Shown: in pieces, positions 8,627-63,070 of the stretch
How the letters are laid out: the number at the start of each line of letters is the position of its first letter
Numbering within the stretch: position 1 is the stretch's first letter
From: Leptolyngbya sp. FACHB-261
GTDB lineage: Bacteria > Cyanobacteriota > Cyanobacteriia > FACHB-261
Reading direction: 5' to 3'
Assembly (NCBI RefSeq): GCF_014696065.1
Contig: NZ_JACJPL010000031.1
Location: 124,001 to 188,000, forward strand
Length of the DNA: 64,000 bases
Position numbers and translations under genes: made by a program
Notes under the pieces: generated by a model
Seen by the model: only the letters and a program-made list of their open reading frames with translations
Told to the model about the DNA's origin: nothing
Databases searched by the model: none

Positions 8627-9979
8627 ATGAATAACCCTAAGACAGGCTATCAAAACAATACCAAGCAAGGCAGGGAAATCCCTTACGACCTCAGTAGAAA
8701 GGATGCCAAAAAAGAAGACATCAACCCTGCTGCAACTCGGGAGGCACGGATTGCCCGGATGCGTACCGCTGGCACAGTGTTACGGAAACGGAGCCAGAGC
8801 CTTGAAAAGCTGGAATCGCTTCCCACAGATGTACCGGATCTAGTTTGTTTGTCACATCTGCGCTGGGATTTTGTATACCAGAGACCGCAACATTTACTGA
8901 GCCGTTGCGCACAAGAGCAACGGGTATTTTTTGTCGAAGAGCCGATCTTCGGTACAGAACCAGGAACCCGCATAGACATTAGTCGCCGTGACAATGGGGT
9001 TTGGGTGGTTGTGCCCCATCTCCATGAGTCTTTACAGGGTGACTCTGCCCATCCAACTCAACAGCAACTCCTCGACCAGCTGTTCGCTGAACGTGAAATT
9101 GAACAGCCAATCCTCTGGTACTACACCCCAATGGCGCTGCCTTTTAGCCGCCACTTGCAGCCATCGCTAGTTGTGTATGACTGCATGGATGAGTTGTCTG
9201 CATTTAAGGGAGCGCCTCCTATCCTGCGAGAACTAGAAGCTGAGTTGTTTGAGCGCGCTAACTTAGTTTTCACAGGCGGACAAACGCTTTACGAAGCCAA
9301 GCGCGAGCAACACGCTAATGTCCATGCCTTTCCCAGTAGTGTTGATGTGCCTCATTTTGCTCAAGCTCGAACGCTAACTGAAGAGCCAGCCGATCAGGCC
9401 TCGATTCCCCATCCGCGTATTGGCTTCTATGGGGTGATCGACGAGCGGATGGACTTGGATCTGTTGCGCGGCGTGGCCGAGGCTCGCCCTGAGTGGCATC
9501 TGGTTATTATTGGCCCCGTCGTTAAGATTGACCAGGCTCAGTTGCCCCGCTTAGACAATATTCATTACCTAGGTGGCAAAGCTTATACAGAATTGCCCCA
9601 GTATCTAGCTGGCTGGGACGTTGCCATGTTGCCCTTTGCCCGCAATGAGTCTACGCGCTTTATCAGCCCCACTAAAACCCCAGAATACTTAGCAGCAGGA
9701 CGACCTGTTGTATCCACCTCAATTCGAGATGTTGTTTGTCCCTATGGCCAGTCTGGCTTGGCGGAAATTGCAGATACAGTTCCGGAGTTTGTAGCAGCAG
9801 TCGAGATGCTACTTTCACGGGATCCTCAAGCCTCTGGCTGGTTGCCTCAAGTTGATCAATTTCTATCGCAGATATCTTGGGACCGCACCTGGAACCAGAT
9901 GGCCGAGTTAATGGGTGCAGCGATGGGCTCAGAGCAACTTGTAGCTAAAGCGAAGACGGCGTTGCGTTCCAGCAAATAG
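8627..9979 (+). CDS. Glycosyltransferase, GT-B fold (GT1/GT4 type)
   Basis: 450 residues from ATG 8627, chosen over the in-frame TTG two codons earlier because AAAGG lies 6-10 bp upstream of it. After a basic, probably disordered 60-residue leader comes DLVCLSHLRWDFVYQRPQH, the start of a GT-B fold common in genes paired with UDP-galactopyranose mutase. The C-terminal donor domain has SPTKTPEYLAAGRPVV, with the conserved Glu of the GT4 EX7E region. Together with the next gene (glf) it probably adds a sugar, possibly galactofuranose, during cell-surface glycan synthesis; acceptor and linkage are unknown. Confidence 0.88.
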   Translation: MNNPKTGYQNNTKQGREIPYDLSRKDAKKEDINPAATREARIARMRTAGTVLRKRSQSLEKLESLPTDVPDLVCLSHLRWDFVYQRPQHLLSRCAQEQRVFFVEEPIFGTEPGTRIDISRRDNGVWVVVPHLHESLQGDSAHPTQQQLLDQLFAEREIEQPILWYYTPMALPFSRHLQPSLVVYDCMDELSAFKGAPPILRELEAELFERANLVFTGGQTLYEAKREQHANVHAFPSSVDVPHFAQARTLTEEPADQASIPHPRIGFYGVIDERMDLDLLRGVAEARPEWHLVIIGPVVKIDQAQLPRLDNIHYLGGKAYTELPQYLAGWDVAMLPFARNESTRFISPTKTPEYLAAGRPVVSTSIRDVVCPYGQSGLAEIADTVPEFVAAVEMLLSRDPQASGWLPQVDQFLSQISWDRTWNQMAELMGAAMGSEQLVAKAKTALRSSK

Positions 9980-10036
9980 CTTACTCAACCCATAAAATAA
10001 GCTGAAAGACTTACTTAAGAGTGTTAGTGAGAGTGC

Positions 10037-10058
10037 CAGGGATCAATCCTGATCCCTG
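10037..10058. promoter_or_regulatory. Perfect 9-bp hairpin between glycosyltransferase and glf
   Basis: CAGGGATCA, ATCC loop, TGATCCCTG. It lies 58 bp after the glycosyltransferase stop, with no T-tract, so it may be an mRNA-processing or stabilising stem rather than a terminator. Confidence 0.45.
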
Positions 10059-10161
10059 CCTGCTGACCTCAAGTTAGACAGCTTAGACCATTTGGACCAT
10101 AACATAGAGCTCAACTTATTAATGGGCTCTTGGACAAGTAATCAAAAAGGCGAAATAACCC

Positions 10162-11313
10162 ATGTTTGACTATCTCATTGTCGGTGCAGGTTTCGCTGGC
10201 AGCGTTTTAGCAGAGCGGCTTGCCAGCCAATCCAACAACAAGGTTTTAATTGTTGACCGTCGTCCACACATTGCAGGTAACGCTTACGATCACTACAACG
10301 ACGAAGGAATTCTGGTCCATAAGTACGGACCTCACATTTTTCACACTAACTCTCGGGATGTATTCGAATATCTCTCGCGTTTTACAGAATGGCGTCCTTA
10401 CGAACATCATGTCTTAGCAAGTGTAGACGGTCAACAGGTGCCGATCCCCATTAACTTAGACACCATTAACAAGCTTTACGGCCTTAGCCTGACTTCTTTT
10501 CAGCTAGAAGATTTTTTTGCATCTGTTGCTGAACCCAAAGAATACATCCGCACATCTGAAGACGTAGTTGTTAATAAGGTTGGTCGCGAACTCTACGAGA
10601 AGTTCTTCCGCAACTACACGCGTAAGCAATGGGGAATTGACCCCTCTGAGCTCGACAAGTCGGTTACAGCACGAGTACCCACCCGTACCAACCGCGACGC
10701 TCGTTATTTCACCGATACTTATCAGGCTATGCCCCTGCACGGCTATACACGGATGTTTGAGAGCATGCTCTCTCATCCCAATATCAAGGTGATGCTCAAC
10801 ACTGATTATCGGGAAATCTTGGATGTCCTGCCGTTCCGCGAGATGATTTATAGCGGTCCAGTTGATGAATTCTTTGATTACCGCTACGGCAAATTGCCCT
10901 ATCGCTCTCTACACTTCAAGCACGAAACGATCAACGCACCTGTCCATCAAGCGGCACCTGTAGTTAATTATCCTAACGAGCATCTTTATACTCGTGTCAC
11001 TGAGTTCAAGTATCTAACTGGACAAGACCACCCCAAAACCAGCATTGTTTACGAATATCCTCGGGCAGAAGGTGATCCTTACTATCCAGTCCCTAAACCG
11101 GAAAATGCAGAGCTGTATAAGCAGTACAAAGCTTTAGCGGATGCAACACCTAACGTGCATTTTGTTGGGCGTCTAGCGACCTACAAATACTACAACATGG
11201 ACCAAGTGGTTGCTCAAGCCTTAACGCTTTATAACCAACTGATTGAGCAGGGCAAAAACTGGAAGCCCCAAGACAGTAATGGTCAGACGTTAGCAGCAGT
11301 TGCAGCTAAGTAG
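10162..11313 (+). CDS. glf: UDP-galactopyranose mutase
   Basis: 383 residues, typical length. This FAD enzyme interconverts UDP-galactopyranose and UDP-galactofuranose. It has the N-terminal FAD motif IVGAGFAGSVLAERLA, 'GNAYDHYNDEGILVHKYGPHIFHT' with the flavin-proximal His and Gly residues, 'YTRKQWG' and the C-terminal 'FVGRLATYKYYNMDQV' region that closes the active site. It follows the glycosyltransferase by 180 bp and ends in a strong terminator. Galactofuranose in a polysaccharide or glycan is implied; UDP-Gal could come from the GalE/GalT encoded about 5-9 kb away. Confidence 0.96.
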   Translation: MFDYLIVGAGFAGSVLAERLASQSNNKVLIVDRRPHIAGNAYDHYNDEGILVHKYGPHIFHTNSRDVFEYLSRFTEWRPYEHHVLASVDGQQVPIPINLDTINKLYGLSLTSFQLEDFFASVAEPKEYIRTSEDVVVNKVGRELYEKFFRNYTRKQWGIDPSELDKSVTARVPTRTNRDARYFTDTYQAMPLHGYTRMFESMLSHPNIKVMLNTDYREILDVLPFREMIYSGPVDEFFDYRYGKLPYRSLHFKHETINAPVHQAAPVVNYPNEHLYTRVTEFKYLTGQDHPKTSIVYEYPRAEGDPYYPVPKPENAELYKQYKALADATPNVHFVGRLATYKYYNMDQVVAQALTLYNQLIEQGKNWKPQDSNGQTLAAVAAK

Positions 11314-11631: not shown

Positions 11632-13875
11632 ATGGCAGAGTCGCACCCGATTCAGCCCCTTGAGTTGTGGGCAGGTGTGGAGTGTACAGTTAACCGGGTA
11701 AGAGAACAATACTTTAATCAGCTTGAGCGCAATGGGCACCTTACCCGCCTGGATGATTTAGATCGCTTTGCGGAATTAGGCATTCGCGCCCTGCGCTATC
11801 CGATCCTGTGGGAACAGATCGCGCCCAATGGTTTAGATCAGGCTGACTGGACCTGGGCCGACGAGCGGCTAGGCCGTCTGCAGGAATTAGGCATCCGCCC
11901 AATCGTGGGTTTGGTTCACCACGGCAGTGGTCCTAGCCACACCAGCCTGGTCGATCCAGCTTTTCCAGAGCAACTGGCTCAGTTTGCCAAAGCTGTAGCA
12001 GAGCGTTATCCCTGGGTCGATGCTTATACACCAGTCAATGAGCCTCTCACCACAGCCCGCTTCAGCGGTATGTATGGACATTGGTATCCCCACGGTCGTG
12101 ATGATCAGACGTTCATTCGCGCTTTGCTGACTCAATGCCGTGCAGTAGTGCTCTCGATGCAGGCGATTCGCCAAATTAATCCCCAAGCCCAATTGGTACA
12201 GACCGAGGATTTGGGCAAAACCTTCAGCACGCCAACTCTGGCTTACCAGGCAAATCTCGAAAATGAGCGTCGGTGGTTGAGTTTCGATTTGCTCTGCGGC
12301 CGCATCGACAAACACCACCCCCTAAGGCGCTACCTATTGCCATCGGGTATCTCTGAGGCTGAGCTCGACTGGTTTGGGCAACACCCCTGCCCTCCAGACA
12401 TCCTAGGCATCAACCATTACTTAACCAGCGAACGCTTTTTAGACGAACGCTTGGAAAACTACCCGGCTCACACGCACGGTACTAACGGACAACATAGCTA
12501 TGCCGATGTAGAGGCGGTACGAGTCTCTGCTGAGGGGACAGTTGGACCTCAGGTTTTACTGCGAGAGGCATGGGATCGCTATCACCTACCCCTAGCTATT
12601 ACCGAAGTGCACCTTAATTGCACCCGTGAGGAGCAATTGCGCTGGCTCAAAGAAGTTTGGGACGCAGCCCAAAGTTTGCACCAAGAAGGCGTGGCGATGC
12701 GGGCTGTCACTGTTTGGGCTTTGCTGGGCAGTTACGACTGGATTAGCCTGGTTACCCGCTCAGATGGCCACTACGAACCGGGGGTTTTTGACCTGCGCTC
12801 CAATCAGCCCCGCGCCACTGCCCTAGCGCGAATGATGCGTGAACTAGCCGCAAAAGGCGATTACGACCATCCTGTCCTCGCTCAACCTGGTTGGTGGCGT
12901 CGTCCTGAACGGCTGCTCTACCCGCCTGTGAGCTACCCTCGAACCGCAGTGCCGCCGCTGAGACAAGCACAAAAACAGGGGCAGGATCAAAGGGTGCAGC
13001 CTCTGCTGATCACTGGTGCGACTGGGACTTTGGGTAAGGCCTTTGCCCGGATGTGCGAGGTGCGCGGCATCTCTTATCAGTTGCTCAGCCGCCACCAAAT
13101 GGATATTGCGGATCCTGACTCTGTAAAGGCAGTTCTGTCAGAGCTTAACCCTTGGGCCATCGTCAATACAGCCGGGTATGTGCGGGTAGATGATGCTGAA
13201 CGCGAACCCGAACGCTGTCTGCGCGAGAACACTGAGGGACCCGCGGTGCTAGCAGCAGCTTGCGCTCAACAGGGAGTTGAGTTACTCACTTTCTCTTCGG
13301 ACCTAGTCTTCGATGGCAATCAGCCTGTTCCCTATATTCCCTATGTTGAGAGCCATGCTGTATCACCTTTGGGAGTCTATGGACGTAGCAAGGCCGAGGC
13401 AGAAGCCCGCGTTCTCAAAGCGCTGCCCAGTGCTCTAGTCGTGAGGACTAGCGCTTTCTTTGGCCCTTGGGATGAACACAACTTTGTCACGGTTGCCCTA
13501 CGCACCTTAGCTGCTGGCCAGCCCTTTGTTGCAGCCCAAGATGTGCTGATTTCACCCACCTATGTTCCCGATCTGGTGCAGACTAGCCTAGATCTCCTGT
13601 TAGACGGCGAGTATGGCCTCTGGCACCTCAGCAATACGGGAGCAGTGAGCTGGGCTGACCTGGCCCGAGAGGTCGCAAACTATGCGGGCTTTGATGCTAG
13701 TTACATTCGAGCCTGTGCTAGCGATGAGCTGTCCTTGATTGCCCCTCGGCCTCGCTATAGCGTCTTGAGCAGTGAGCGTGGGCTCTTGCTTCCATCTTTA
13801 GACAATGCCTTGAGTCGCTATTTCAACGAGTGTCAGGTTTCAGGGGCGGCCCCCAAAAAAGTTCTTGTAAGTTAA
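11632..13875 (+). CDS. GH1-like glycosidase fused to RmlD-type sugar-nucleotide reductase
   Basis: 747 residues from ATG 11632; GGAG at 11621 is 7 bp upstream, whereas the ATG at 11626 is too close. Residues about 1-410 are a (beta/alpha)8 GH1-like domain: acid/base Glu in TPVNEPLTTARFSG and nucleophile candidate Glu in AITEVHLNC. Residues about 455-735 are an RmlD/dTDP-4-dehydrorhamnose reductase-like extended SDR, with LLITGATGTLGKAF for nucleotide binding and YGRSKAEAE holding Tyr and Lys. The two-domain protein suggests coupled glycoside cleavage and sugar-nucleotide or free-sugar reduction, but the substrate is unknown. It converges with galK. Confidence 0.9.
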   Translation: MAESHPIQPLELWAGVECTVNRVREQYFNQLERNGHLTRLDDLDRFAELGIRALRYPILWEQIAPNGLDQADWTWADERLGRLQELGIRPIVGLVHHGSGPSHTSLVDPAFPEQLAQFAKAVAERYPWVDAYTPVNEPLTTARFSGMYGHWYPHGRDDQTFIRALLTQCRAVVLSMQAIRQINPQAQLVQTEDLGKTFSTPTLAYQANLENERRWLSFDLLCGRIDKHHPLRRYLLPSGISEAELDWFGQHPCPPDILGINHYLTSERFLDERLENYPAHTHGTNGQHSYADVEAVRVSAEGTVGPQVLLREAWDRYHLPLAITEVHLNCTREEQLRWLKEVWDAAQSLHQEGVAMRAVTVWALLGSYDWISLVTRSDGHYEPGVFDLRSNQPRATALARMMRELAAKGDYDHPVLAQPGWWRRPERLLYPPVSYPRTAVPPLRQAQKQGQDQRVQPLLITGATGTLGKAFARMCEVRGISYQLLSRHQMDIADPDSVKAVLSELNPWAIVNTAGYVRVDDAEREPERCLRENTEGPAVLAAACAQQGVELLTFSSDLVFDGNQPVPYIPYVESHAVSPLGVYGRSKAEAEARVLKALPSALVVRTSAFFGPWDEHNFVTVALRTLAAGQPFVAAQDVLISPTYVPDLVQTSLDLLLDGEYGLWHLSNTGAVSWADLAREVANYAGFDASYIRACASDELSLIAPRPRYSVLSSERGLLLPSLDNALSRYFNECQVSGAAPKKVLVS

Positions 13876-13906: not shown

Positions 13907-14971
13907 CTAATGTGCCTCTGGCACTAATAGACGTCCGGCATAGCCCTGGCGGTTATAGCGTTCCAAGACCGCTTGACCCACTGCCAGGGCTTGCCCCGCT
14001 CTAACTAAAGCAACACAGGCACCGCCAAAGCCAGCCCCAGTCAAACGAGCGCCAAACACATCAGAAGTTGTCTGAAGCATCTCGACTAATGTGTCTAAAG
14101 CAGACACCGAGACCTCATAGTCATCACGCAGGCTGGCATGAGAGGCATTCATCAGCTCGCCAAATCGTTGTGCAGAGACCCCTCGCACAGCTTCAAGCAC
14201 TCGGTTGTCTTCAGTAATCACATGTCGAGCGCGACGGCGTAACGGCTCTGGTAAACTCTCCGCTGCTTGAGGATCGCTGACATCACGCAACGCCGAAACT
14301 CCCAATTGGCGTGCCGCTGCTTCGCACTCAGCCCGTCGCTGGTTGTAGCCACTAGCTGCTAACTTACGGGGTACACCGCTATCAATTACTAAAATTTCAG
14401 TTTCAGGCGGCAGGGGCAACACCTGTCGCTCTAAGGTGCGCGTATCCAGAAATAGCAGTTGCCCCAAATCAGCTAGGCTCGACGCCATCTGGTCCATAAT
14501 GCCGCACTCGACGCCCGCGTATTGAATCTCCGCCTGCTGAGCAAGTTGCGCAATCTGGACATCATCGAGTTTGAGCTCTAGCAGGGCCCTTAGTCCTCTA
14601 AACGTTGCCACTTCCAGAGCCGCGCTACTAGACAAACCCGACCCTATAGGCACAGAAGAAGTGACATACACATTTAGAGGCGGTACAGGCTGCTCTGCCG
14701 ACACCATCTGAATGCAGCCAAAAACATAACTGGCAAACCCTTGAGGCGTGGGACCAGTCCTAGCAAGGCTCACCTTCTCATCCAGTTCTTGAGAGTAAAA
14801 ATGATGCTGGTCATCTGAACTAAAGCCGAGCTGAACAGTGGTTGATTGAGGAATTGCCGTTGGTAAGACAAAGCCTTCGTTGTAATCTGTGTGCTCGCCT
14901 AGCAGATTCACCCGTCCCGGTGCTGTCGCCTGGGTCGTTGGTTCAGCACCAAATATTTGCTGAAAGTCCAT
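13907..14971 (-). CDS. galK: Galactokinase
   Basis: 354 residues from ATG 14971; an upstream in-frame TTG is less likely. It phosphorylates galactose to galactose-1-phosphate. GHMP-kinase motifs: PGRVNLLGEHTDYNEGFVLP (sugar binding), GSGLSSSAALEVA (phosphate loop) and TGAGFGGACVAL (motif 3). It forms a minus-strand Leloir group with the M24 gene, galT, a GH2 glycosidase and galE; a 10-bp hairpin precedes it. Confidence 0.96.
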   Translation of the reverse strand: MDFQQIFGAEPTTQATAPGRVNLLGEHTDYNEGFVLPTAIPQSTTVQLGFSSDDQHHFYSQELDEKVSLARTGPTPQGFASYVFGCIQMVSAEQPVPPLNVYVTSSVPIGSGLSSSAALEVATFRGLRALLELKLDDVQIAQLAQQAEIQYAGVECGIMDQMASSLADLGQLLFLDTRTLERQVLPLPPETEILVIDSGVPRKLAASGYNQRRAECEAAARQLGVSALRDVSDPQAAESLPEPLRRRARHVITEDNRVLEAVRGVSAQRFGELMNASHASLRDDYEVSVSALDTLVEMLQTTSDVFGARLTGAGFGGACVALVRAGQALAVGQAVLERYNRQGYAGRLLVPEAH

Positions 14972-54893: not shown

Positions 54894-54900
54894 GTTAGGG
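54894..54900 (-). repeat. attC-like half site at the 3' end of the VOC gene
   Basis: On the minus strand the VOC stop codon lies inside CCCTAACAAACCGCTCAA. 'CTAACAA' followed by 'CGCTCAA' is the look of an integron attC R''/L'' arm, and this is where a cassette's site begins, at the gene end. The matching R' arm below 54890 is not clear; only a CAACTT/AAGTTG stem is visible. Confidence 0.4.
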
Positions 54901-55380
54901 GTTGTGATGCTCATTCTTGAGCAATGCCTGTAGAGGATTCAGAAATTCCTCCAGTTCATCCCACTGCGACTCTAAAGCTTGGCGGGCAGATGTTTCGGCA
55001 ACAATTTCCAGTCTTATGCCGTCTGGATCCTCGAAAAATATAGCGTAGTATTCAGGATGGTATTCGGGATACCGTTTGGGTGGGCTTACCTCGATTCCCA
55101 CTGCTCTGAGCTTCTCAAAGCATGAGTCTATTTCGGTCATTGTCTCTACCTGAAAGCAGAGGTGATGCAAGCCGGGAGTATAGGGATCGTGTTTTTGTCC
55201 TGTCTTTGCGGGCCGAATTGTCAACTGAAACTGTGGACCTAAGTAATGGGCGTGCGGTTCACCAGCAATAGCTTTATCACCCTTGTGTTGCTCGAGTTCC
55301 TGCATAACCAGGTCGTAGAATGTCTCAGAGCGGGAAAAATCGGAAACCGAGAGGTAAATGTGGTCGATTCTTTTTAGCAT
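54895..55380 (-). CDS. VOC family (glyoxalase/bleomycin-resistance-like) protein
   Basis: 161 residues. Opens with LKRIDHIYLSVSDFSRSETFYDLVM, the vicinal-oxygen-chelate first strand-helix with the His ligand. Further candidate ligands: HHLCFQV (about 92) and the closing EDPDGIRLEIV (Glu). Probably a metal-dependent lyase, dioxygenase or resistance protein; substrate unknown. It is the outermost of a run of small minus-strand genes with cassette-like spacing. Confidence 0.88.
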   Translation of the reverse strand: MLKRIDHIYLSVSDFSRSETFYDLVMQELEQHKGDKAIAGEPHAHYLGPQFQLTIRPAKTGQKHDPYTPGLHHLCFQVETMTEIDSCFEKLRAVGIEVSPPKRYPEYHPEYYAIFFEDPDGIRLEIVAETSARQALESQWDELEEFLNPLQALLKNEHHNP

Positions 55381-55555
55381 CTCGTAGTGTAATCACTCAA
55401 CAATGGCCAAGTTCAGGTGCAGGCAGTAAAGCTAAATAAAGCTAACTGTCAATTGCCGCGCCTTGTTGAGCCGATTCGGTGCAGCTTTGGCACAGGTATA
55501 TCCCTTGAGGCATCCTCACCTTACCCAGAGGCAATTGCCCCCAACTCGTAAGCCC

Positions 55556-56221
55556 TCATAAGTCATAGACACCACCGCGCTCTAGGGCACGGCGGTAGGC
55601 CGGACGTTGATGAATGCGATCCAGGAATGCCATAAGCTTAGGCCGACTCGCGTTTAGTCCTGCCCTTCCCGTAGCCGCCTCTAGCGGGAAGCTCATCTGG
55701 ATATCGGCGGCAGTAAATTCATGGCCTGCAAACCATTCGCTTTTGCCAATCTCCGCCTCTAGGTAATCTAGGTGCAGCGCAATTTGAGGTCCAGTAAATG
55801 AGCTTTTCGTGCGAGTTACAATCGCTCGGGCAATCGGACGCGCAAAAAAGGGCATTGGCTGTTGCTCGATTCGGTCGAAGACAAGCTTGAGCAGCAGCGG
55901 CGGCATCACTGAGCCTTCTGCATAATGTAGCCAGTAGGTGTAACGCAACCGCTCCGGTGTGCCCGGAGTCGGAACCAAGCGTCCGTTACCGTAGCGTTCG
56001 ACCAGATACTCAACAATAGCTCCGGATTCCGCCAGGGTTAATCCAGCATCGGTAATCACCGGCGACTTACCGAGTGGATGCACCTCGCGCAGTGATGTCG
56101 GTGCCAGCATGGTTTGTGGGTCGCGCTCGTAGTGCTTGATTTCGTATTCCAACCCGAGTTCTTCTAGCAACCAGAGCACCCGTTGGGAGCGGGAGTTATT
56201 CAAGTGGTGGACGGTGATCAT
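55556..56221 (-). CDS. Glutathione S-transferase
   Basis: 221 residues. Thioredoxin-like N-terminal domain (MITVHHLNNSRSQRVLWLLEELGLEYEIKHYERDP) with the active-site Ser region NSRSQR and the glutathione-binding LAESGAIVEYL. The all-helical C-terminal domain has EWFAGHEFTAADIQMSFPLEA, with the N-capping box Asp. Full length. It conjugates or reduces electrophiles and peroxides with glutathione. The gap to the VOC gene (55381-55555) contains no clear attC-like pair. Confidence 0.92.
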   Translation of the reverse strand: MITVHHLNNSRSQRVLWLLEELGLEYEIKHYERDPQTMLAPTSLREVHPLGKSPVITDAGLTLAESGAIVEYLVERYGNGRLVPTPGTPERLRYTYWLHYAEGSVMPPLLLKLVFDRIEQQPMPFFARPIARAIVTRTKSSFTGPQIALHLDYLEAEIGKSEWFAGHEFTAADIQMSFPLEAATGRAGLNASRPKLMAFLDRIHQRPAYRRALERGGVYDL

Positions 56222-56404: not shown

Positions 56405-56860
56405 TCAAAGCTCTCTTGTCATAAAGACGCTATACGGATCTTCAACATAATCTGCAAAAGGTTGGCAATAGGTAAAGCCAAAATTAGCGTAGAGTTTACG
56501 AGCAGGCTCGAAAGCTTCCATTGATCCCGTTTCTAAACTTAACCGTCTGTAACCGCGCCGCCTAGCTTCTTCAAGTATGTACTTAAGAAGATTGGTCGCA
56601 ACGCCTTTTCTAAGGTGCAGCGAAGATGTCCGCATAGATTTGATTTCGCCATGTTGAGCATCCAGTTCTTTGATTGCTCCACAGCCGAGTAGCTCCCCAT
56701 TTTCCCACACAGTCCAGAATGTAATTTCCGGTTTGCGTAATGCTTCAATATCCAAGGCATGCACACTCTCAGGCGGCGAGTGTAGAGCCGCACTCTGAAG
56801 ATGTTCTTGCAACAGTTCGTATATCTCGGGACCGCTTAAATCGTCTATTTTAATATTCAT
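56405..56860 (-). CDS. GNAT family N-acetyltransferase
   Basis: 151 residues. GNAT motif A is visible as MRTSSLHLRKGVATNLLKYILEEARRRGYRRLSLETG (R/K-x-x-G-V/I-A acetyl-CoA loop at about 83-89), followed by motif B with FEPARKLYANFGFTYCQPFADY. Similar to ElaA/PhnO-like small acetyltransferases; substrate unknown. It lies exactly between two GCCTAAC/GTTAGGC core-like sites (56386 and 56903), a 517-bp unit typical in size for an integron cassette. Confidence 0.9.
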   Translation of the reverse strand: MNIKIDDLSGPEIYELLQEHLQSAALHSPPESVHALDIEALRKPEITFWTVWENGELLGCGAIKELDAQHGEIKSMRTSSLHLRKGVATNLLKYILEEARRRGYRRLSLETGSMEAFEPARKLYANFGFTYCQPFADYVEDPYSVFMTREL

Positions 56861-56897: not shown

Positions 56898-56993
56898 ACA
56901 ACGCCTAACAACCCAGTTGAGCAACGGCAAGTAACCTAGAATACAGGGGAGAAACCTCAAAGCACCATTCCAAAGACTTGTTAGCAGCGTTGT
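56898..56993 (-). repeat. attC-like imperfect inverted repeat upstream of the GNAT gene
   Basis: On the plus strand ACAACGCCTAACAA (56898-56911) and TTGTTAGCAGCGTTGT (56978-56993) are near-complementary arms enclosing about 66 bp. The inner arms read GCCTAAC (56903-56909) and GTTAGCA (56980-56986), and CAGTTGAGC lies just inside. On the minus strand this is R''-like TGCTAACAAG ... GTTGCTCAACTGGG, R' GTTAGGC, then the GNAT leader. It is the best attC candidate in the window. Confidence 0.6.
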
Positions 56994-57136: not shown

Positions 57137-57625
57137 TTAGAAATCTGGCGCTGGGATTGTCATACCTGCCAAGATATTTTTCAGTTTCTCTGAGTGCAAA
57201 AAGGCAAGATATTGAGTTGTGAACGGTGGAGGCATCAGCTCCAATAAGGTCTGATTTTCAACCCAAAACTCCATTACTTCAAAAAAACCTCCTGCGCTAA
57301 CCCGTACAGTGCGCCAGCCCTCACGCGCAGCCACCGCTCGAATTTTGGCTTCGCTAACAGCAACTGAAAGATTAAAATGAGTGACGCTATAGCCAGAGGA
57401 ACGAGAATGGTTCACCGAATAGCAAAAGGACTCATCTCCTGAACCCGGCTGCAACTCCAAACCCTGTGGGGAAATCTCAATCAAAGTTCCGTATACATCC
57501 TCGGTAAAAACAACGTAGCTGCCTGGATTTTTTGAAAAAGGAGCCACAGTCCCCTGCAACAATTCAGCTAGAACCTGAGCGACATGAAGCGGATTATTTG
57601 CCGCCATTGAAAAGTGATGAATCAT
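57137..57625 (-). CDS. VOC-like hypothetical protein
   Basis: 162 residues. Starts MIHHFSMAANNPLHVAQVLAELLQG, a glyoxalase-like first unit, with later VTHFNLSVAVSEAKIRAVAAREGW and EFWVENQTLLELMPP (strand with Glu). The paired beta-alpha-beta pattern fits the VOC superfamily, but the metal residues are not certain and no substrate can be named. One cassette-like unit between candidate sites at 56986 and 58118. Confidence 0.7.
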   Translation of the reverse strand: MIHHFSMAANNPLHVAQVLAELLQGTVAPFSKNPGSYVVFTEDVYGTLIEISPQGLELQPGSGDESFCYSVNHSRSSGYSVTHFNLSVAVSEAKIRAVAAREGWRTVRVSAGGFFEVMEFWVENQTLLELMPPPFTTQYLAFLHSEKLKNILAGMTIPAPDF

Positions 57626-58251
57626 GATGAAAACAAACTCCCAAATAAAAGAAACAGAGATTTTATGGGCATCACAAAGCAGAACAAACAGTTCTGCTCA
57701 AAGACCAATAATCCGTTACTGATAAGTCTTATGATGTGCAACCTTGAGGGCTTATGCATTCAAAGTTTTTCAGAAAGCACATCAATTGCCTGAAAGCCTT
57801 CCAAAACAAGCGTTTCAGAGTTTTTGCCAGTCAACATAAACTGAGCTGCTAACGATGCGATTGAGCGGCTGTAAATAACCTTTACCTACACAGGAAATAT
57901 TAGTCAATCCACGCCAGCCAAATTACTAGAGCGATCATTGCGTTTAAGACTAAGCTTTAATATGCAAAGCTTGTCTTAGCTTGGCTATTACCCTTGAGGG
58001 TACTTTTCTGAAATTTGCGGTTGCCTCACGACCTTTAAAGCGTTGCCTCATCTATAAGCTCACGCCAACCCAACCTCGAACACCAGCAGAGGAACTTCGG
58101 CTACGTCTCCTCCAAACGCTCAACGGCACAACGATTAGGCTCAGGCACGTGGGACCGGTGCACTGAACCTGATCGACTGAAAGCATGCCCAGCCCCATGT
58201 TGTCGCCTGTAGCGCCCTGGTTAGGGCGATAGCGGCATAAAAGGCCACAAC
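57626..58251. other. Long gap between the VOC-like and lipoprotein genes
   Basis: About 625 bp. A plus-strand frame at 57981-58166 has no motif. The right part contains the attC-like site at 58118-58226. The rest (57626-58100) shows nothing I recognise. Confidence 0.5.
58118..58226 (-). repeat. attC-like element downstream of the lipoprotein gene
   Basis: Plus strand: GCTCAAC (58118-58124, RYYYAAC) ... GTTAGGG (58220-58226). On the minus strand CCCTAACCAGGGCG folds as a small perfect hairpin (CGCCCT/AGGGCG, 58213-58228), and the end reads CGTTGAGCG. A further GCCTGTAG/CTACAGGC pair (58205-58212, 58252-58259) includes the lipoprotein stop codon. Confidence 0.4.
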
Positions 58252-58824
58252 CTACAGGCACCCTTCCACATACTGAATGCTAGGGCCTCCCGCACGGACG
58301 TGGGTTGCGCGGGCATCTGAACCCACCTCATAGACAATTCCGCGAGCATTGGGCTCGGTCGGAGCCGTGCTCCAGATGGTGATGTATTCAGCAGGAGGCG
58401 GGACATACTTGTGCGGAGTGACTACAGCCTTGCCTGCATAGGCAGCCTTGATTGCTGAGGCCGAGTCAGCGACGCCGAAGCCTGCCTCAGTCTTTATGGG
58501 TGAGCCGTTGATTAGGGAGATCCGGGTAAGCCGTCCCTGCTCGATCATCACAAGCATGCCTACCGGCGCACGGCTCGGGCGAAACTCGTCGCACTGCTCC
58601 GGATCCGGTCCCCCGACTGCATCGGGGTTGGCATCTTCACCCAATGCCGCAACTACCTCCTCACGCGTCATGCCAACGCGAAGTGGCCCCCAACCATCTG
58701 CGGTCAGGGGTGTCGAAGCACTCGATTCGGAAGGCTGAGCGGCATCCGGTGACGCAGTCGTGCTTTGGCAGGAGCAGAGACAAAGCGCAGCCGTGATGCA
58801 GAATAATAACCGGCTTAATACCAT
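58252..58824 (-). CDS. Predicted lipoprotein, unknown function
   Basis: 190 residues. N-terminal lipoprotein signal SRLLFCITAALCLCSC with lipobox Cys at about 19, then a Ser/Ala/Pro linker and a folded domain with WGPLRVGMTREEVVAALGED, a pattern of small SmpA/OmlA- or PepSY-unlike envelope proteins; four later Cys or aromatic residues may be structural. Its GC-rich, Ala-rich style resembles proteobacterial proteins more than neighbours do. It begins 20 bp after a GTTAGGC core (58850-58844), as a first integron cassette would. Confidence 0.75.
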   Translation of the reverse strand: MVLSRLLFCITAALCLCSCQSTTASPDAAQPSESSASTPLTADGWGPLRVGMTREEVVAALGEDANPDAVGGPDPEQCDEFRPSRAPVGMLVMIEQGRLTRISLINGSPIKTEAGFGVADSASAIKAAYAGKAVVTPHKYVPPPAEYITIWSTAPTEPNARGIVYEVGSDARATHVRAGGPSIQYVEGCL

Positions 58825-58843
58825 GGCAGATCGAATGAGAGAG

Positions 58844-59071
58844 GCCTAACGATGTAATGGGCAGACAGCTCTGCCTAAGATCCTGTAGCAAGTAGATAAG
58901 CAGAATAATTCAGTTTGGCATAAGGCTTTAAATTCAGTGCTTAAGTCGATCGTTCCGCTTAGTACGCTGCCTGAAGTGGATGGGCCGGATGTTTTCGCAT
59001 ATCTTCAGACTCCTATGTGGATGATTAGATGTACTACTGAACACACCGTACATCGTTTTCGTTCAACTTTC
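58844..59071. promoter_or_regulatory. Putative attI/integrase promoter region with 40-bp-spaced repeats
   Basis: Runs from the GCCTAAC core (58844-58850) to the integrase-fragment ATG. GTTCCGCTTA (58952) and TTTTCGCATA (58992) are 40 bp apart, and an inverted relative, TATGTGGATGA, lies at 59014-59024. The same motif family recurs at 62839-62930. In an integron this is where attI, recombinase-binding repeats and the cassette promoter lie. No -35/-10 pair could be picked with confidence. Confidence 0.45.
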
Positions 59072-59176
59072 ATGCAGTAGCGTCTGAAGAAACTGCTAGA
59101 GCAAGTGCAAGACGCGGTTCGACTGAAGCCCTACGCCTACCACACGGAGGAAAGCTACATTACTTAAATTCGACGT
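59072..59176 (+). pseudogene. Integron integrase (IntI-like) N-terminal fragment
   Basis: From ATG 59072 the frame reads M-Q-stop(59078)-RLKKLLEQVQDAVRLKPYAYHT, then EESYIT-stop(59165)-IRR. This matches the start of IntI/IntI-like tyrosine recombinases, pattern LLxQVRxxIRLKHYSxRTExxYxxWIRR, with H to P, S to A, R to H and W to TAG/TAA-type stop changes. Two in-frame stops and the complete loss of the core-binding and catalytic domains make it a dead remnant. It points right, divergent from the cassette-like genes to its left, which is the normal intI arrangement. Confidence 0.75.
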
Positions 59177-59223: not shown

Positions 59224-59676
59224 TCACTGTTCGCGAAACAATTGCCACCATTCGGCCTGAAACTGCTCTTGGGCTTCAACGCTTACAGGTTCTACATCAT
59301 CACCTGTTTTGAAAATGTCTACGGTTGGACGCAGTAGCTGACCATCTTCGCTCACCCGATAAGCCTTACGGCCCAAAGCCATATCAGCTGCCATTCCCGT
59401 TAATATGATCCTCCGGCTGGCTCTGTAGCACATGGGTAGAAGACCGTGCAAAGCAAGTTTCTCTTGAACCCTTTTGAAAGACTCGAAGAAATGACAAGCT
59501 GTTTCTTCAATGACACCACCGGCCCACTGCAACTTGATACGACATTTAGTGCGACGACCAGTCACTTCGGTCCAATCACGACAACCCAATTCAACTGCTG
59601 CTGGAAGCAAATGACCCTCTGCATCCCTCAGCGAGATTTGGTATTGGCCAACAGCTTTTTCTGGAACTTCAGACAT
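59224..59676 (-). CDS. Hypothetical protein
   Basis: 150 residues, no recognised domain. Begins with ATG 59676 and MSEVPEKAVGQYQISLRDAEGH. It contains a possible CHFFESFKRVQEKLALHGLLPMCYRASRRIILTGMAADM region with two Cys, and an acidic Trp-rich end (EQFQAEWWQLFREQ). Alternating strand/helix pattern suggests a small folded domain. It occupies a cassette-like unit whose 5' side has an attC-like site at 59733-59790; its 3' side abuts the integrase fragment. Confidence 0.65.
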   Translation of the reverse strand: MSEVPEKAVGQYQISLRDAEGHLLPAAVELGCRDWTEVTGRRTKCRIKLQWAGGVIEETACHFFESFKRVQEKLALHGLLPMCYRASRRIILTGMAADMALGRKAYRVSEDGQLLRPTVDIFKTGDDVEPVSVEAQEQFQAEWWQLFREQ

Positions 59677-59732
59677 TTAACGCTCTAAGTAAAGCATCAT
59701 TACACTTGCAGCTTCTGAACTATTAACATCAG

Positions 59733-59790
59733 CGCTAACAGGTAGGCTGCATGAACTGTACCAATCACTTAAGCAGACGAACGGTTAGCA
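59733..59790 (-). repeat. attC-like element (58 bp)
   Basis: Plus strand: CGCTAAC (59733-59739) ... GTTAGCA (59784-59790), with an inner CTGC/GCAG pair and a 22-nt centre. Minus strand: TGCTAAC ... GTTAGCG. Length is at the lower end of known attC sites. It sits between the 59224 gene and the NTF2-like gene. Confidence 0.45.
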
Positions 59791-59960
59791 CACCAGCAGC
59801 AGGCAATCTTGAAACACAGCTAACAGATACCAGTCCGTCCGGTGCAGGCAATGGTTCTTATCTGAACTCATCATTCCTGCCGTTGGCTATAGCTGATTCT
59901 AAGTTTAGAACTTGGCAAATAATCTGGCTGTATTATTGCAACATGGTTGCTGGGCTGCGC

Positions 59961-60359
59961 CTATGCAAACAACGGTGTAGTATCTGTGTAGAATCTAACC
60001 GAGGTCACCAACCCCTCCTCATTGCGATCAGTAAAAGCAACGGCTCGAATGGCAACCGTCTTTTCATCATTGCGTTTGTAATGATTCAGTGCCTCAAGCA
60101 CGAAGCATGAGTCGCTACCGTAGATATTTAACAAGTCGTGTTCCAGACTGGCGAAGGTCGTCCAATACCCAGCAAGTCCCTGCATCACAACCTCTTTGCC
60201 TTTCATTGCAGGGTCGTTGTTTGATTGTACGGAGCAATCCGGCGCTAAAAATCTGCCATATGCTTCAATATCTAAAGTGTCTAACGCCTTTAAATACTGC
60301 AGATACCACTCATATGCTTTGGAAGAAAGTTGATTGATCCTTAGGTTTTCGGTTTTCAC
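59961..60359 (-). CDS. NTF2-like/SnoaL-type protein
   Basis: 132 residues from GTG 60359, which has AGGAG 6 bp upstream. The cone-shaped NTF2-like fold pattern is visible: YLQYLKALDTLDIEAYGRFLAPDCSVQSNND (helix, then first strand with the conserved Asp region), GYWTTFASLEHDLLNIYGSDSCFVLEALNHY and a final AVAFTDRNEEGLVTSVRFYTD sheet. Such proteins are steroid-isomerase- or hydroxylase-like, but also common unknown cassette cargo. Confidence 0.8.
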   Translation of the reverse strand: MKTENLRINQLSSKAYEWYLQYLKALDTLDIEAYGRFLAPDCSVQSNNDPAMKGKEVVMQGLAGYWTTFASLEHDLLNIYGSDSCFVLEALNHYKRNDEKTVAIRAVAFTDRNEEGLVTSVRFYTDTTPLFA

Positions 60360-60693
60360 CTGTCACTCCTCTCTACGGCTCAAAGATGTGCTCAGGTTAT
60401 CTCACTTCTCAAGGACGTGCCCGCAACTTCAACTTAATTTCTCTATTTCTGCTGCCTGATCGATAACTTCCAAAACATTACCTGGGCAATGTCTTCCAAA
60501 CAACCTAATCCTGAGCACTAGCAAATCAGTTTCAAACCATTGCGTCTGAGCATAAACAGTTGATGGGTTAGCAGTACACTTCATACAATTAATGTCGCTA
60601 CAAACTGCAACCCAAAGAAGGTACTACACTTCTCACAATGCAAACTAACTCACGACCAGCATTGATGTACTGCCCTTATCAAAGAAAGAAGCC

Positions 60694-60781
60694 GCCCAAC
60701 GTTTGAGCTAGCCGAACGGAGATAACTTTTGCAACTCAACCAATAGTCTAGGCTCTGTTCCAATACAATGCCTTGTTATGA
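60694..60781 (-). repeat. attC-like element (88 bp)
   Basis: Plus strand: GCCCAAC (60694-60700) followed by GTTTGAGC, and ending CTTGTTATGA (60772-60781). Minus strand: ...AGCTCAAACGTTGGGC, a classic L'-R' end with GTTGGGC (GTTRRRY), opposite TCATAACAAGG. Inner arms GAACGGAG and CTCTGTTC are complementary with one mismatch. Between the NTF2-like and YdeI-like genes. Confidence 0.55.
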
Positions 60782-60801
60782 TTGCACAGGGACCAAGATT
60801 G

Positions 60802-61386
60802 TCATTGGGTCAATGGATTTCTATTCTGCGCTACTGAGCTTATGGTCTTTTCAATCCTCTTCAACCTGGTCTCTGGACGCTTTGCACTATCAATCCAAAA
60901 GAGAATATTCTTCTTTGCTGAATTACTGAACGACTCAAAATTCTGGTTAGCTATTTCGTTTGCTTCTAAGGCTTGCTTTAAGTCCACTGGCACGCTTAAT
61001 GCTTCGATCTCATCTAGCAGAGCCCACGAGCCATCTTGCTTCGCAGCATTAATCTTTTTGAGACCCGCCTCAGTCATCAATCCTTGTGCGATCAGTTCTT
61101 CAATGTACTGCTTATTGAGTTTTGACCATACACTTTTGGGTTTTCGGGGTGTGAAGATTTGCATATAGCGTTCTTCATCTAAAGATTTAACTTTACTGTC
61201 AATCCAACCGAAACATAAGGCTTCTTTGACTGCTTCGCTGTATTGAACGCTGGGCTTACCGCTTTTGACCTTGTAATAAATCAACCATATGCCGATCGAG
61301 GTGCAATAGTTCTTTTCTAACCATTGCCGCCACGCCTTGCGATCGCTGGCATAAATAGTTTCGATTCGGTCATCAAATTTCAGCAT
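60802..61386 (-). CDS. YdeI/OmpD-associated family protein
   Basis: 194 residues from ATG 61386; a TTG five codons earlier is possible. Diagnostic RKAWRQWLEKNYCTSIGIWLIYYKV start, then ALCFGWIDSKVKSLDEERYMQIFTPRKPKSVWSKLNK, and a C-terminal helical domain with AALEANEIANQNFESFSNSAKKNILFWIDSAKRPETRLKRI. This matches the YdeI (BOF/OmdA) family, linked to stress tolerance in some bacteria. It lacks any gene partner here; one cassette-like unit. Confidence 0.9.
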   Translation of the reverse strand: MLKFDDRIETIYASDRKAWRQWLEKNYCTSIGIWLIYYKVKSGKPSVQYSEAVKEALCFGWIDSKVKSLDEERYMQIFTPRKPKSVWSKLNKQYIEELIAQGLMTEAGLKKINAAKQDGSWALLDEIEALSVPVDLKQALEANEIANQNFESFSNSAKKNILFWIDSAKRPETRLKRIEKTISSVAQNRNPLTQ

Positions 61387-61501
61387 TAAAGAAGACAGCA
61401 AACAATTCTAGGGCTAAGAGCCAACATAAGCTCAGCAGGCTAACGTTCACACTCACCGTAAGAAGAACATCATCTACGCGTCCCAGCCATCGCCCGAAAG
61501 A

Positions 61502-61591
61502 GGCTAACCGTGAGTTCTAGTCAGCAGTTGCCAATACCGCTGCAACACCGCAAGCAGCTTTGGCAAATCCGCTGCGCCAGTATTGTTAGCC
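61502..61591 (-). repeat. attC-like element (90 bp)
   Basis: Plus strand: GGCTAAC (61502-61508) ... GTTAGCC (61585-61591), exact 7-bp complements. Inner CAATAC/GTATTG arms and a central GCTGC/GCAGC stem make a foldable site. It lies between the YdeI-like and cupin genes. A second GGCTAAC occurs about 60 bp to the left (around 61439-61446). Confidence 0.55.
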
Positions 61592-61615
61592 CTCATATGG
61601 CGGGTAGCGTGTATG

Positions 61616-62098
61616 TCACACATATGGAGAGCCGTCTTTGTGAACGAAACTCCACATCCCCTCAACGAGCAAGGCTTTAAGGTCGTCATCGGGATAGTAT
61701 CCCTCGTCTCCGGGTGTCCGATCGCCAACTTCGAGGTACACGACCTCCTCTGTGGTTTCGTTGATCAAGCGGTGTCCGTTGCCTGTGCCTGCCTTAAACC
61801 CGGCGCACATTCCGGCACAGAGTTGAGTTCGCCCCTCGTTTGTATGAAGGGTAGGTCGGCCTTGGAGAATATAGACAAACTCGTCTTGCTTCGTATGCGC
61901 GTGACGAAGGGCAGACACTGCATTGGGAGCCAAGCGCGTGAGGTTTACACCAAAGTTTGTGAGGCCAAAGAGATCGCCGAGGGGGCGCTTCTCCCTTCCA
62001 GCCATGCGCGACGCAAAAGGCTCTGGATAGACGGAAGGTTTAGTTCGCACTGGCATCTCAGACGCGACGACAGCAATCGGCTTTGACTCATGCAACAT
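61616..62098 (-). CDS. Cupin domain protein
   Basis: 160 residues. The cupin motif 1 is visible as LRHAHTKQDEFVYILQGRPTLHTNEG (H-x-H...E, metal ligands), with motif 2 GNGHRLINETTEEVVYLEVGDR (His). A small beta-barrel, metal-dependent enzyme or sugar-binding protein; substrate unknown. It is bracketed by a perfect 12-bp inverted repeat (61585-61596 and 62118-62129). Confidence 0.9.
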   Translation of the reverse strand: MLHESKPIAVVASEMPVRTKPSVYPEPFASRMAGREKRPLGDLFGLTNFGVNLTRLAPNAVSALRHAHTKQDEFVYILQGRPTLHTNEGRTQLCAGMCAGFKAGTGNGHRLINETTEEVVYLEVGDRTPGDEGYYPDDDLKALLVEGMWSFVHKDGSPYV

Positions 62099-62117
62099 GC
62101 GAACCTCGCGAAGGATG

Positions 62118-62129
62118 ATGAGGGCTAAC
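62118..62129 (-). repeat. 12-bp inverted repeat arm / cassette core upstream of the cupin gene
   Basis: ATGAGGGCTAAC here is the exact reverse complement of GTTAGCCCTCAT at 61585-61596 on the other side of the cupin gene. The GGTTGAGCTG just to the right resembles an attC L' arm. Its expected partner arm would lie near 62250, overlapping the NTF2-like stop (GTTACTG). Confidence 0.5.
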
Positions 62130-62251
62130 GGTTGAGCTGATTGGATGCAGACAACCTCTGCAACTTAACAGACAAGCGAAACGATAGAGCACCTCGTCTA
62201 TGCAGGAATCGCTGCTACCCCGATTACGCGTCCGAGCCCGGAGAGGGCACG

Positions 62252-62648
62252 TTACTGAAGCGCCTGTTGGACCAGCAACGTGTCCGTGTACTGGACGTAG
62301 CGGATAGCTCTCCCGTCGCGAACCTTCCAAACATGGGCAAACGGCGCCCGGAAGCTTTTACCGGTTGCCTTGTAGGTGCCGCTATAGTGGCCGAGGACGA
62401 CGATTGTCTCACCGCCATCGACGGAACTCGTCTGGGGTCGTCTGAAAACCTTCCCAATCCGTGGCAAGCCTCATTAGCACCCCCTTGAGAGCCGCCTCCG
62501 GTCCATGGTACGTGCCAGAGAGGGGGAATCCCTCTGCTTCCGTCCATTCGATTTGAGGATCAAGTAGGGGTCGGACTGTGGTGACGTCGCCCTTGGTTAA
62601 GGCCTCGTAAAGCGACTTGATGATTTGGAGAGATGTTGTGGCAGCCAT
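62252..62648 (-). pseudogene. NTF2-like/SnoaL gene broken by a frameshift
   Basis: The start (62648) reads TTSLQIIKSLYEALTKGDV with LLDPQIEWTEAEGFPLSGTY and FQTTPDEF; the reading then fails into RRWR-stop. The other frame carries the rest: VDGGETIVVLGHYSGTYKATG, APFAHVWKVRDGRAIRYVQYTD. The frames join at about 62423 with one extra base (or two missing). Together they make a complete SnoaL-type protein of about 130 residues. Either a real inactivating mutation or a sequencing error. Confidence 0.8.
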
Positions 62649-62808: not shown

Positions 62809-62815
62809 GTTAGGC
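62809..62815 (+). repeat. GTTAGGC core-like site
   Basis: Plus-strand ACTATTGTTAGGC; minus-strand GCCTAACAATAGTTGTGC, the usual start of an attC R''-L'' arm. It lies 160 bp upstream of the broken NTF2-like gene with no clear partner arm; it may be the outer edge of the cassette region. Confidence 0.4.
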
Positions 62816-62838
62816 TTGCTGGGCTATTGGGCCGCAAG

Positions 62839-62930
62839 TTTCCACATAACATACCCATAGTGGTGATTAGGCGGATGATTTCCACATAGCACCTCAAATC
62901 AGGTAGATAAGCAGAATCTTTCCGCATATT
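62839..62930 (+). repeat. Three iterons at exact 40-bp spacing
   Basis: TTTCCACATAAC (62839), TTTCCACATAGC (62879) and TTTCCGCATATT (62919) start exactly 40 bp apart. Each is preceded by a GCGGA/GCAGA/GCCGC-type segment, giving imperfect palindromes of the form GCGGA..TTTCCRC. They are related to the repeats at 58952 and 58992 beside the integrase fragment. A recombinase-binding array is the likely meaning. Confidence 0.6.
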
Positions 62931-63070
62931 TTCAGCTCGGCACACCTGAATTAACAAGCATTTTAATTACTCAGGGCCTTTTAGATGGAGTTCCTCTGGC
63001 TCAGCTGGTTTCCCAGCTAGCCACGGCAACACAGTCCATTGCTAAGAATAATCTAGTACTAAGTAGATAA
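62873..63070 (+). other. Start-less open frame, possible gene remnant
   Basis: An uninterrupted frame of 65 codons reads TSNQVDKQNLSAYFQLGTP, then ELTSILITQGLLDGVPLAQL and VSQLATATQSIAKNNLVLSR before a stop. Composition looks protein-like, but there is no start codon and it overlaps the iterons. Not recognised; the remaining about 220 bp to the SDR gene hold no feature. Confidence 0.3.

Follow-up and report, generated by a model that had tools for sequence, protein, structure and literature searches.

Integrons, attC clusters and integrase pseudogenes

In sedentary chromosomal integrons the integrase gene intI faces away from the cassettes and is accompanied by an attI leader, while the cassette genes all point in one direction, each with its own attC hairpin. 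Clusters of attC sites without integron integrases are referred to as CALINs (Cury et al., as cited in PMC8618304), and the origins proposed for them in the literature include the loss of intI and off-target insertion by a distant IntI. Roughly every third intI is a pseudogene (Nemergut et al. 2008, PMC2426708), and an attC model specific to Cyanobacteria exists (PMC8352920). Cyanobacterial integrons and their attC models, intI pseudogenes and CALINs have therefore all been published; in the open-access literature searched, no tandem or multi-copy cyanobacterial integron platforms, orphan attI platforms or cassette-bounded platforms are described. How integrase-less attC clusters originate and continue to change is the open question touched here.

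The window, a stretch of 64,000 nucleotides from Leptolyngbya sp. FACHB-261, resembles each of these systems in part. It shares the layout of sedentary integrons but differs by its dead intI, by two tandem attI leaders in one array and by at least 22 platform relics in the genome. Like CALINs, it has attC arrays without a working integrase nearby; here, however, orphan attI leaders persist beside the arrays and dead platforms have been copied. The integron integrase is stop-broken as in the known intI pseudogenes, whereas the truncated copies of this genome are numerous, have one common fusion point and lie inside arrays. Leader type and IntI family are those of the Leptolyngbya-type integrons of Lyngbya sp. 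HA4199-MV5, which is also tandem, and of Kovacikia minuta plasmid pB, both of which differ in that their intI is intact. Our preferred reading, to which we give a probability of roughly 65%, is that the sequences record a decayed multi-copy integron whose platforms (attI plus intI) would have been moved by IntI in the manner of cassettes and whose orphan attI sites would have been served in trans.

A broken integrase gene and its attI leader

The features of the relic platform are the following.

59072..59176, plus strand: intI relic, first ~33 codons, interrupted by stops at codons 3 (TAG) and 32 (TAA); the homology breaks off abruptly at 59176
58844..59071, plus strand: attI/leader region of the relic platform, homologous to the leaders of intact integrons, with remnants of ~40-bp iterons
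58844..58850, no strand assigned: attI core GCCTAAC (minus-strand reading GTTAGGC), at the junction with the first left-hand cassette
59028..59054, plus strand: interrupted palindrome GATGTACT-N11-CGTACATC, a possible operator upstream of intI

The original prediction was that a plus-strand frame broken by two stop codons encodes the N-terminal SAM-like domain of IntI. Both stops are present in the translation of 59072-59176, which reads MQ*RLKKLLEQVQDAVRLKPYAYHTEESYIT*IRR, and profile and tblastn searches agree on the assignment. The top family matches are PF13495 (Phage_int_SAM_4, the IntI-type SAM-like domain; E=1.9e-4, under the Pfam gathering score) and, weakly, the integron integrase model TIGR02249 of NCBIfam (E=0.034), while the DNA upstream corresponds to integron leaders. 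In tblastn, 18 of 19 intact cyanobacterial IntI queries match the relic at E<1e-3, the best of them with 57.8 bits (E=1e-11). That a short and interrupted reading frame should resemble IntI by chance is conceivable in principle, yet ten shuffled windows gave a top tblastn score of 28.1 bits, and the DNA match reaches E ~1e-24, which makes this explanation negligible. An origin from a XerC/D or phage integrase unrelated to integrons is hardly more credible: the SAM-like domain is common to many tyrosine recombinases and the stub comprises only ~33 codons, but the IntI-type models match best, integron-leader DNA lies upstream and attC sites are found on the flanks.

All 18 alignments of intact IntI end at position 59176, so the intI gene was cut at this point. 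By descent the relic is an intI, since both its protein and its DNA are homologous to those of intact IntI platforms; with some 33 N-terminal codons left and two stops among them, it is not a functional intI with the IntI-specific additional domain. That these 105 bp are what remains of the 5' end of a true integron integrase gene, equipped with an attI leader of its own, is nearly certain.

The distance of 222 bp to a GTTAGGC junction, predicted to contain attI, also proved real: GCCTAAC lies 221-222 bp to the left of the ATG, and the gap is an attI-type leader homologous to those of intact integrons and bounded by the core and the start codon of intI. DNA alignment of the leader and the start of intI (58840-59176) gives 63-64% identity over 309-339 bp to the intact integrons L037, L034 and L028, which belong to other cyanobacterial families. 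In relatives the leader contains ~40-bp iterons of the type TTTCCGCATAACACCC, which are degraded but recognisable in the window, and intact relatives keep the palindrome upstream of intI in the form GATGTACT-N11-AGTACATC, of which the window has a degraded version. A predicted attI, with its core at 58844 and a conserved leader, thus adjoins the relic. The leader was identified as attI because it is tied to attC: among 36 named leader loci from a pattern search, all cyanobacterial and compared by eye, 65 of 65 attC matches share the leader's orientation, and only two are not on its cassette side.

Every iteron contains a GCATAAC-like sequence, and GCATAAC is also a frequent attC core in this clade, so that the iterons may represent additional IntI sites. 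In a metagenome-assembled genome of Kastovskya adunca (L099 3580-3733), the leader is joined after its second iteron to an attC that has no outer core of its own, as if the iteron core GCATAAC had been used for recombination.

The attC family and the cassette array

A strict attC stem finder returned almost no sites, and a relaxed version mostly chance matches, yet the latter revealed a real family. Inverted repeats with cores were collected without a prior model, and 26 sites, none of them from the window, were aligned; they share one hairpin, with double-sided compensatory changes in 11 of 18 pairs. A covariance model (R1) was built from them, whose E-values are rough; Rfam gave no match. 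Like the sites behind the published Cyanobacteria-specific model (PMC8352920), these are taxon-typical attC hairpins on cyanobacterial chromosomes. R1 finds no attC in the small-genome family f2, which argues that the model is specific. At E<=1e-4 it detects attC in 69 of 96 class relatives, against 31 of 96 with an integrase above the TIGR02249 family cut-off; if our reading is true, searches for intact intI alone would miss most of cyanobacterial integron history.

Around the relic, the cassettes and attC sites are arranged as follows.

54895..55380, minus strand: cassette gene, glyoxalase/bleomycin resistance superfamily (PF00903)
55398..55471, plus strand: attC remnant, 18.2 bits, 3' of the GST gene
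55556..56221, minus strand: cassette gene, glutathione S-transferase, GST (PF02798)
56405..56860, minus strand: cassette gene, GNAT acetyltransferase (PF00583)
56903..56986, plus strand: attC site, 30.2 bits, 3' of the gene 57137-57625
57137..57625, minus strand: cassette gene, no Pfam family
57847..57931, plus strand: degenerate attC site, 23.9 bits (covariance model R1)
58126..58226, plus strand: doubtful attC remnant, 11.9 bits, 3' of the gene 58252-58824
58252..58824, minus strand: first cassette gene left of the relic attI, no Pfam family; start codon 20 bp from the core
59224..59676, minus strand: gene directly adjoining the broken intI, without an intact attC of its own
59776..59860, plus strand: attC site, 32.0 bits, 3' of the SnoaL-like gene
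59961..60359, minus strand: cassette gene, SnoaL-like (PF12680)
60694..60781, plus strand: attC site, 20.4 bits, 3' of the OmdA-domain gene
60802..61401, minus strand: cassette gene, YdeI/OmpD-associated, OmdA (PF13376)
61502..61591, plus strand: attC site, 31.5 bits, 3' of the cupin gene
61616..62098, minus strand: cassette gene, cupin (PF07883)
62409..62648, minus strand: broken SnoaL-like gene, closest to the right-hand leader (weak PF12680, under cut-off)

With filters off, R1 gives seven degenerate attC candidates of 12-32 bits in the 54-64 kb region, all on the plus strand at 55-62 kb and on the 3' side of minus-strand genes, and none at E<=1 in the remaining 54 kb of the window. Since they lie 3' of cassette genes in a single orientation, the genes form a true cassette array and, as had been proposed, an integron rather than a chance cluster of small genes; having no functional integrase, the array is a CALIN. 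The relic, on the plus strand, does face away from the minus-strand cassettes to its left. The canonical intI-attI-cassette layout claimed for the locus accordingly describes its left half, but the fragment does not head the array: minus-strand cassettes also occur to its right (59224-62648), followed by a second leader, and the relic therefore occupies an internal, not a terminal, position in the array. Well-preserved attC sites elsewhere in the genome score 60-86 bits against the 12-32 bits of the window, which makes the window array an old one. It is probably inactive, to judge from the present decay of both the local intI and its attC sites.

Many dead platforms in one genome

To the right of the cassettes lies one further feature.

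62809..62945, plus strand: second attI leader with 40-bp iterons and no recognisable intI after it

Over 105 bp this leader shares 78% identity with that of the intI fossil at C26:213833, and it is 74-85% identical to ~15 further copies in the genome. Altogether the genome has 19 leader copies, each of at least 74 bits, plus three additional intI fossils whose leaders are divergent (C26:190989, C26:205088 and C5:14704), so that the platform relics number at least 22. No intact intI was found in it, and no protein scores above the TIGR02249 cut-off. The assembly is a draft of 36 contigs with 97.7% completeness, and a contig of 3.3 kb has a leader close to its end; an intact copy may thus be hidden in an assembly gap. 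With ~20 orphan attI leaders, ~98 attC sites (98 by R1 at E<=0.01) and no intact intI, the landing site appears here separated from its integrase.

In seven copies (C31:196689, 198542, 201440 and 205270; C1:347569; C26:320433; C26:213590) a truncated intI is fused to one and the same non-intI tail, and in six of the seven most of the N-terminal part is also missing from the same place. Sharing one truncated intI and one tail, they trace back to a platform that already lacked a working integrase: the dead platforms themselves multiplied after the truncation of intI. These leader copies face different first genes, several of them with a well-preserved attC (69.2, 68.5 and 66.4 bits), and the first cassettes at orphan leaders in general often have well-preserved attC sites of 66-77 bits. 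Varied first genes and well-preserved attC sites beside dead platforms suggest that cassettes were inserted in trans, by an integrase from elsewhere, although the cassettes could also be older. Because the cassettes of the C31 cluster differ, its origin by duplication of complete segments, each a leader with its cassettes, is not supported.

Some first cassettes at fossil platforms have recognisable functions. At C5:13853-14374 (L020:8853-9374, minus strand), next to an intI fossil, the first cassette encodes a protein of the aminoglycoside-2''-adenylyltransferase family (PF10706, E=7.6e-37) with a well-preserved attC of 68.5 bits behind it, a resistance-type cassette in a cyanobacterial chromosome. 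Another, at C26:204391-204750 (L018:9391-9750, minus strand), encodes a toxin resembling PemK/MazF (PF02452, E=2.2e-19); large sedentary integrons typically contain toxin-antitoxin cassettes. Long GGAAATAACATC-like repeat runs occur within the tails of platform relics at C31:201687-202106 and C26:214180-214470. The loci C20:750-1172 and C27:605266-605688 are 83% identical to each other over ~1.4 kb on the downstream side of the leader, a stretch with two small ORFs, which means that a longer stretch beside the platform was duplicated there.

Boundaries and proposed movement of the platform units

After the intI remnants or tails, 12 copies carry a conserved right end of ~105 bp. In the alignment of these copies, all from one draft genome, mean pairwise identity is 0.69-0.85 up to a core and 0.32-0.48 past it; the core (e.g. 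GCCTAAC or GCCCAAC) is intact in 11 of the 12 and opens an R1-scored attC in nine, the attC sites past the cores being unrelated to one another. The left edge of the units is the attI core. With an attI core on the left and an attC-type core on the right, a unit sits between two IntI cores, as a cassette does. This bounding is seen at sister copies elsewhere in the genome; the right side of the window platform is deleted, and its cassette-like nature consequently rests on these sisters. A right-end match beside the L072 leader (70% over 56 bp) was too weak for use.

We infer from these boundaries that the platforms moved like cassettes, which suggests that the platform itself can be cargo. The relic platform would have captured the cassettes on its left side; recombination between attC and attI, the latter serving as the units' own site, could then have excised platform units, to be reinserted at another attI or attC, while orphan attI sites would have kept receiving cassettes from an IntI encoded elsewhere. 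Excision and reinsertion at cores would also account for a constant orientation, and clustered relics indeed point one way (C31, six of six; C26, three of three and two of two; C20, C5 and C1, two of two each), the attC sites of their arrays having the same orientation. Against such movement it must be held that the right-end pattern is known from a single draft genome, that neither a circular form nor an empty site was seen there and that the platforms of another genome, described below, have no attC at their right edge and differ in their flanks.

Related platforms in other cyanobacteria

The locus of Lyngbya sp. HA4199-MV5 (L067) comprises, in order, cassettes, a leader, an intact intI (9740-10702), two ORFs, attC sites at 13339 and 14023, and a second leader at 14790 without intI. 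It is the tandem layout of the window with an intact integrase inside.

Genome G079 has two platform copies in the same orientation, 7.7 kb apart and 99.7% identical over 615 bp, the second with its intI cut at ~codon 84. Such copies fit a recent duplication, and the window could likewise be an ordinary sedentary integron decayed into a CALIN, with leader copies made by segmental duplication and gene conversion and no platform mobility at all. The frequency of intI pseudogenes (Nemergut et al. 2008, PMC2426708) is in line with this account. In the Leptolyngbya genome, however, the cassettes between clustered copies are not duplicated, and the units finish on the right at attC cores with unrelated attC sites past them; we consider it unlikely.

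Genome G006 contains three intact platforms of ~1.45 kb that are ~95% identical to one another; their flanks differ, and their right edges are not attC. These copies rule out that platforms are attC-bounded across all cyanobacteria, and they imply a second way of spreading. Together with the intact platform on the Kovacikia minuta plasmid, they favour the view that platforms were spread by another mobile element (plasmid integration, a transposon or homologous recombination between repeats) and gained their cassettes later. Random insertion, though, predicts neither one orientation per cluster nor right ends at attC cores, and for the relics studied here this view seems slightly less probable still than decay in place.

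Cassette-like movement with service in trans, the reading we prefer, calls for a source of integrase. The IntI of Kovacikia minuta plasmid pB is 94% identical to that of HA4199-MV5 and 50% identical to IntI1, and its presence on a cyanobacterial plasmid makes a source in trans possible. A more far-reaching proposal, which we put forward tentatively and at somewhat less than even odds, is a distributed integron in which platforms would travel as cassettes and many orphan attI sites would be served in trans by a single, possibly plasmid-borne integrase.

The HA4199-MV5 locus also contains a 135-bp tandem unit (L067 2139-2301, 7310-7590 and 9255-9528), one copy of which lies right at the attI junction. 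It matches the attC model weakly, with 25-29 bits, and these units are possibly cassettes without a gene.
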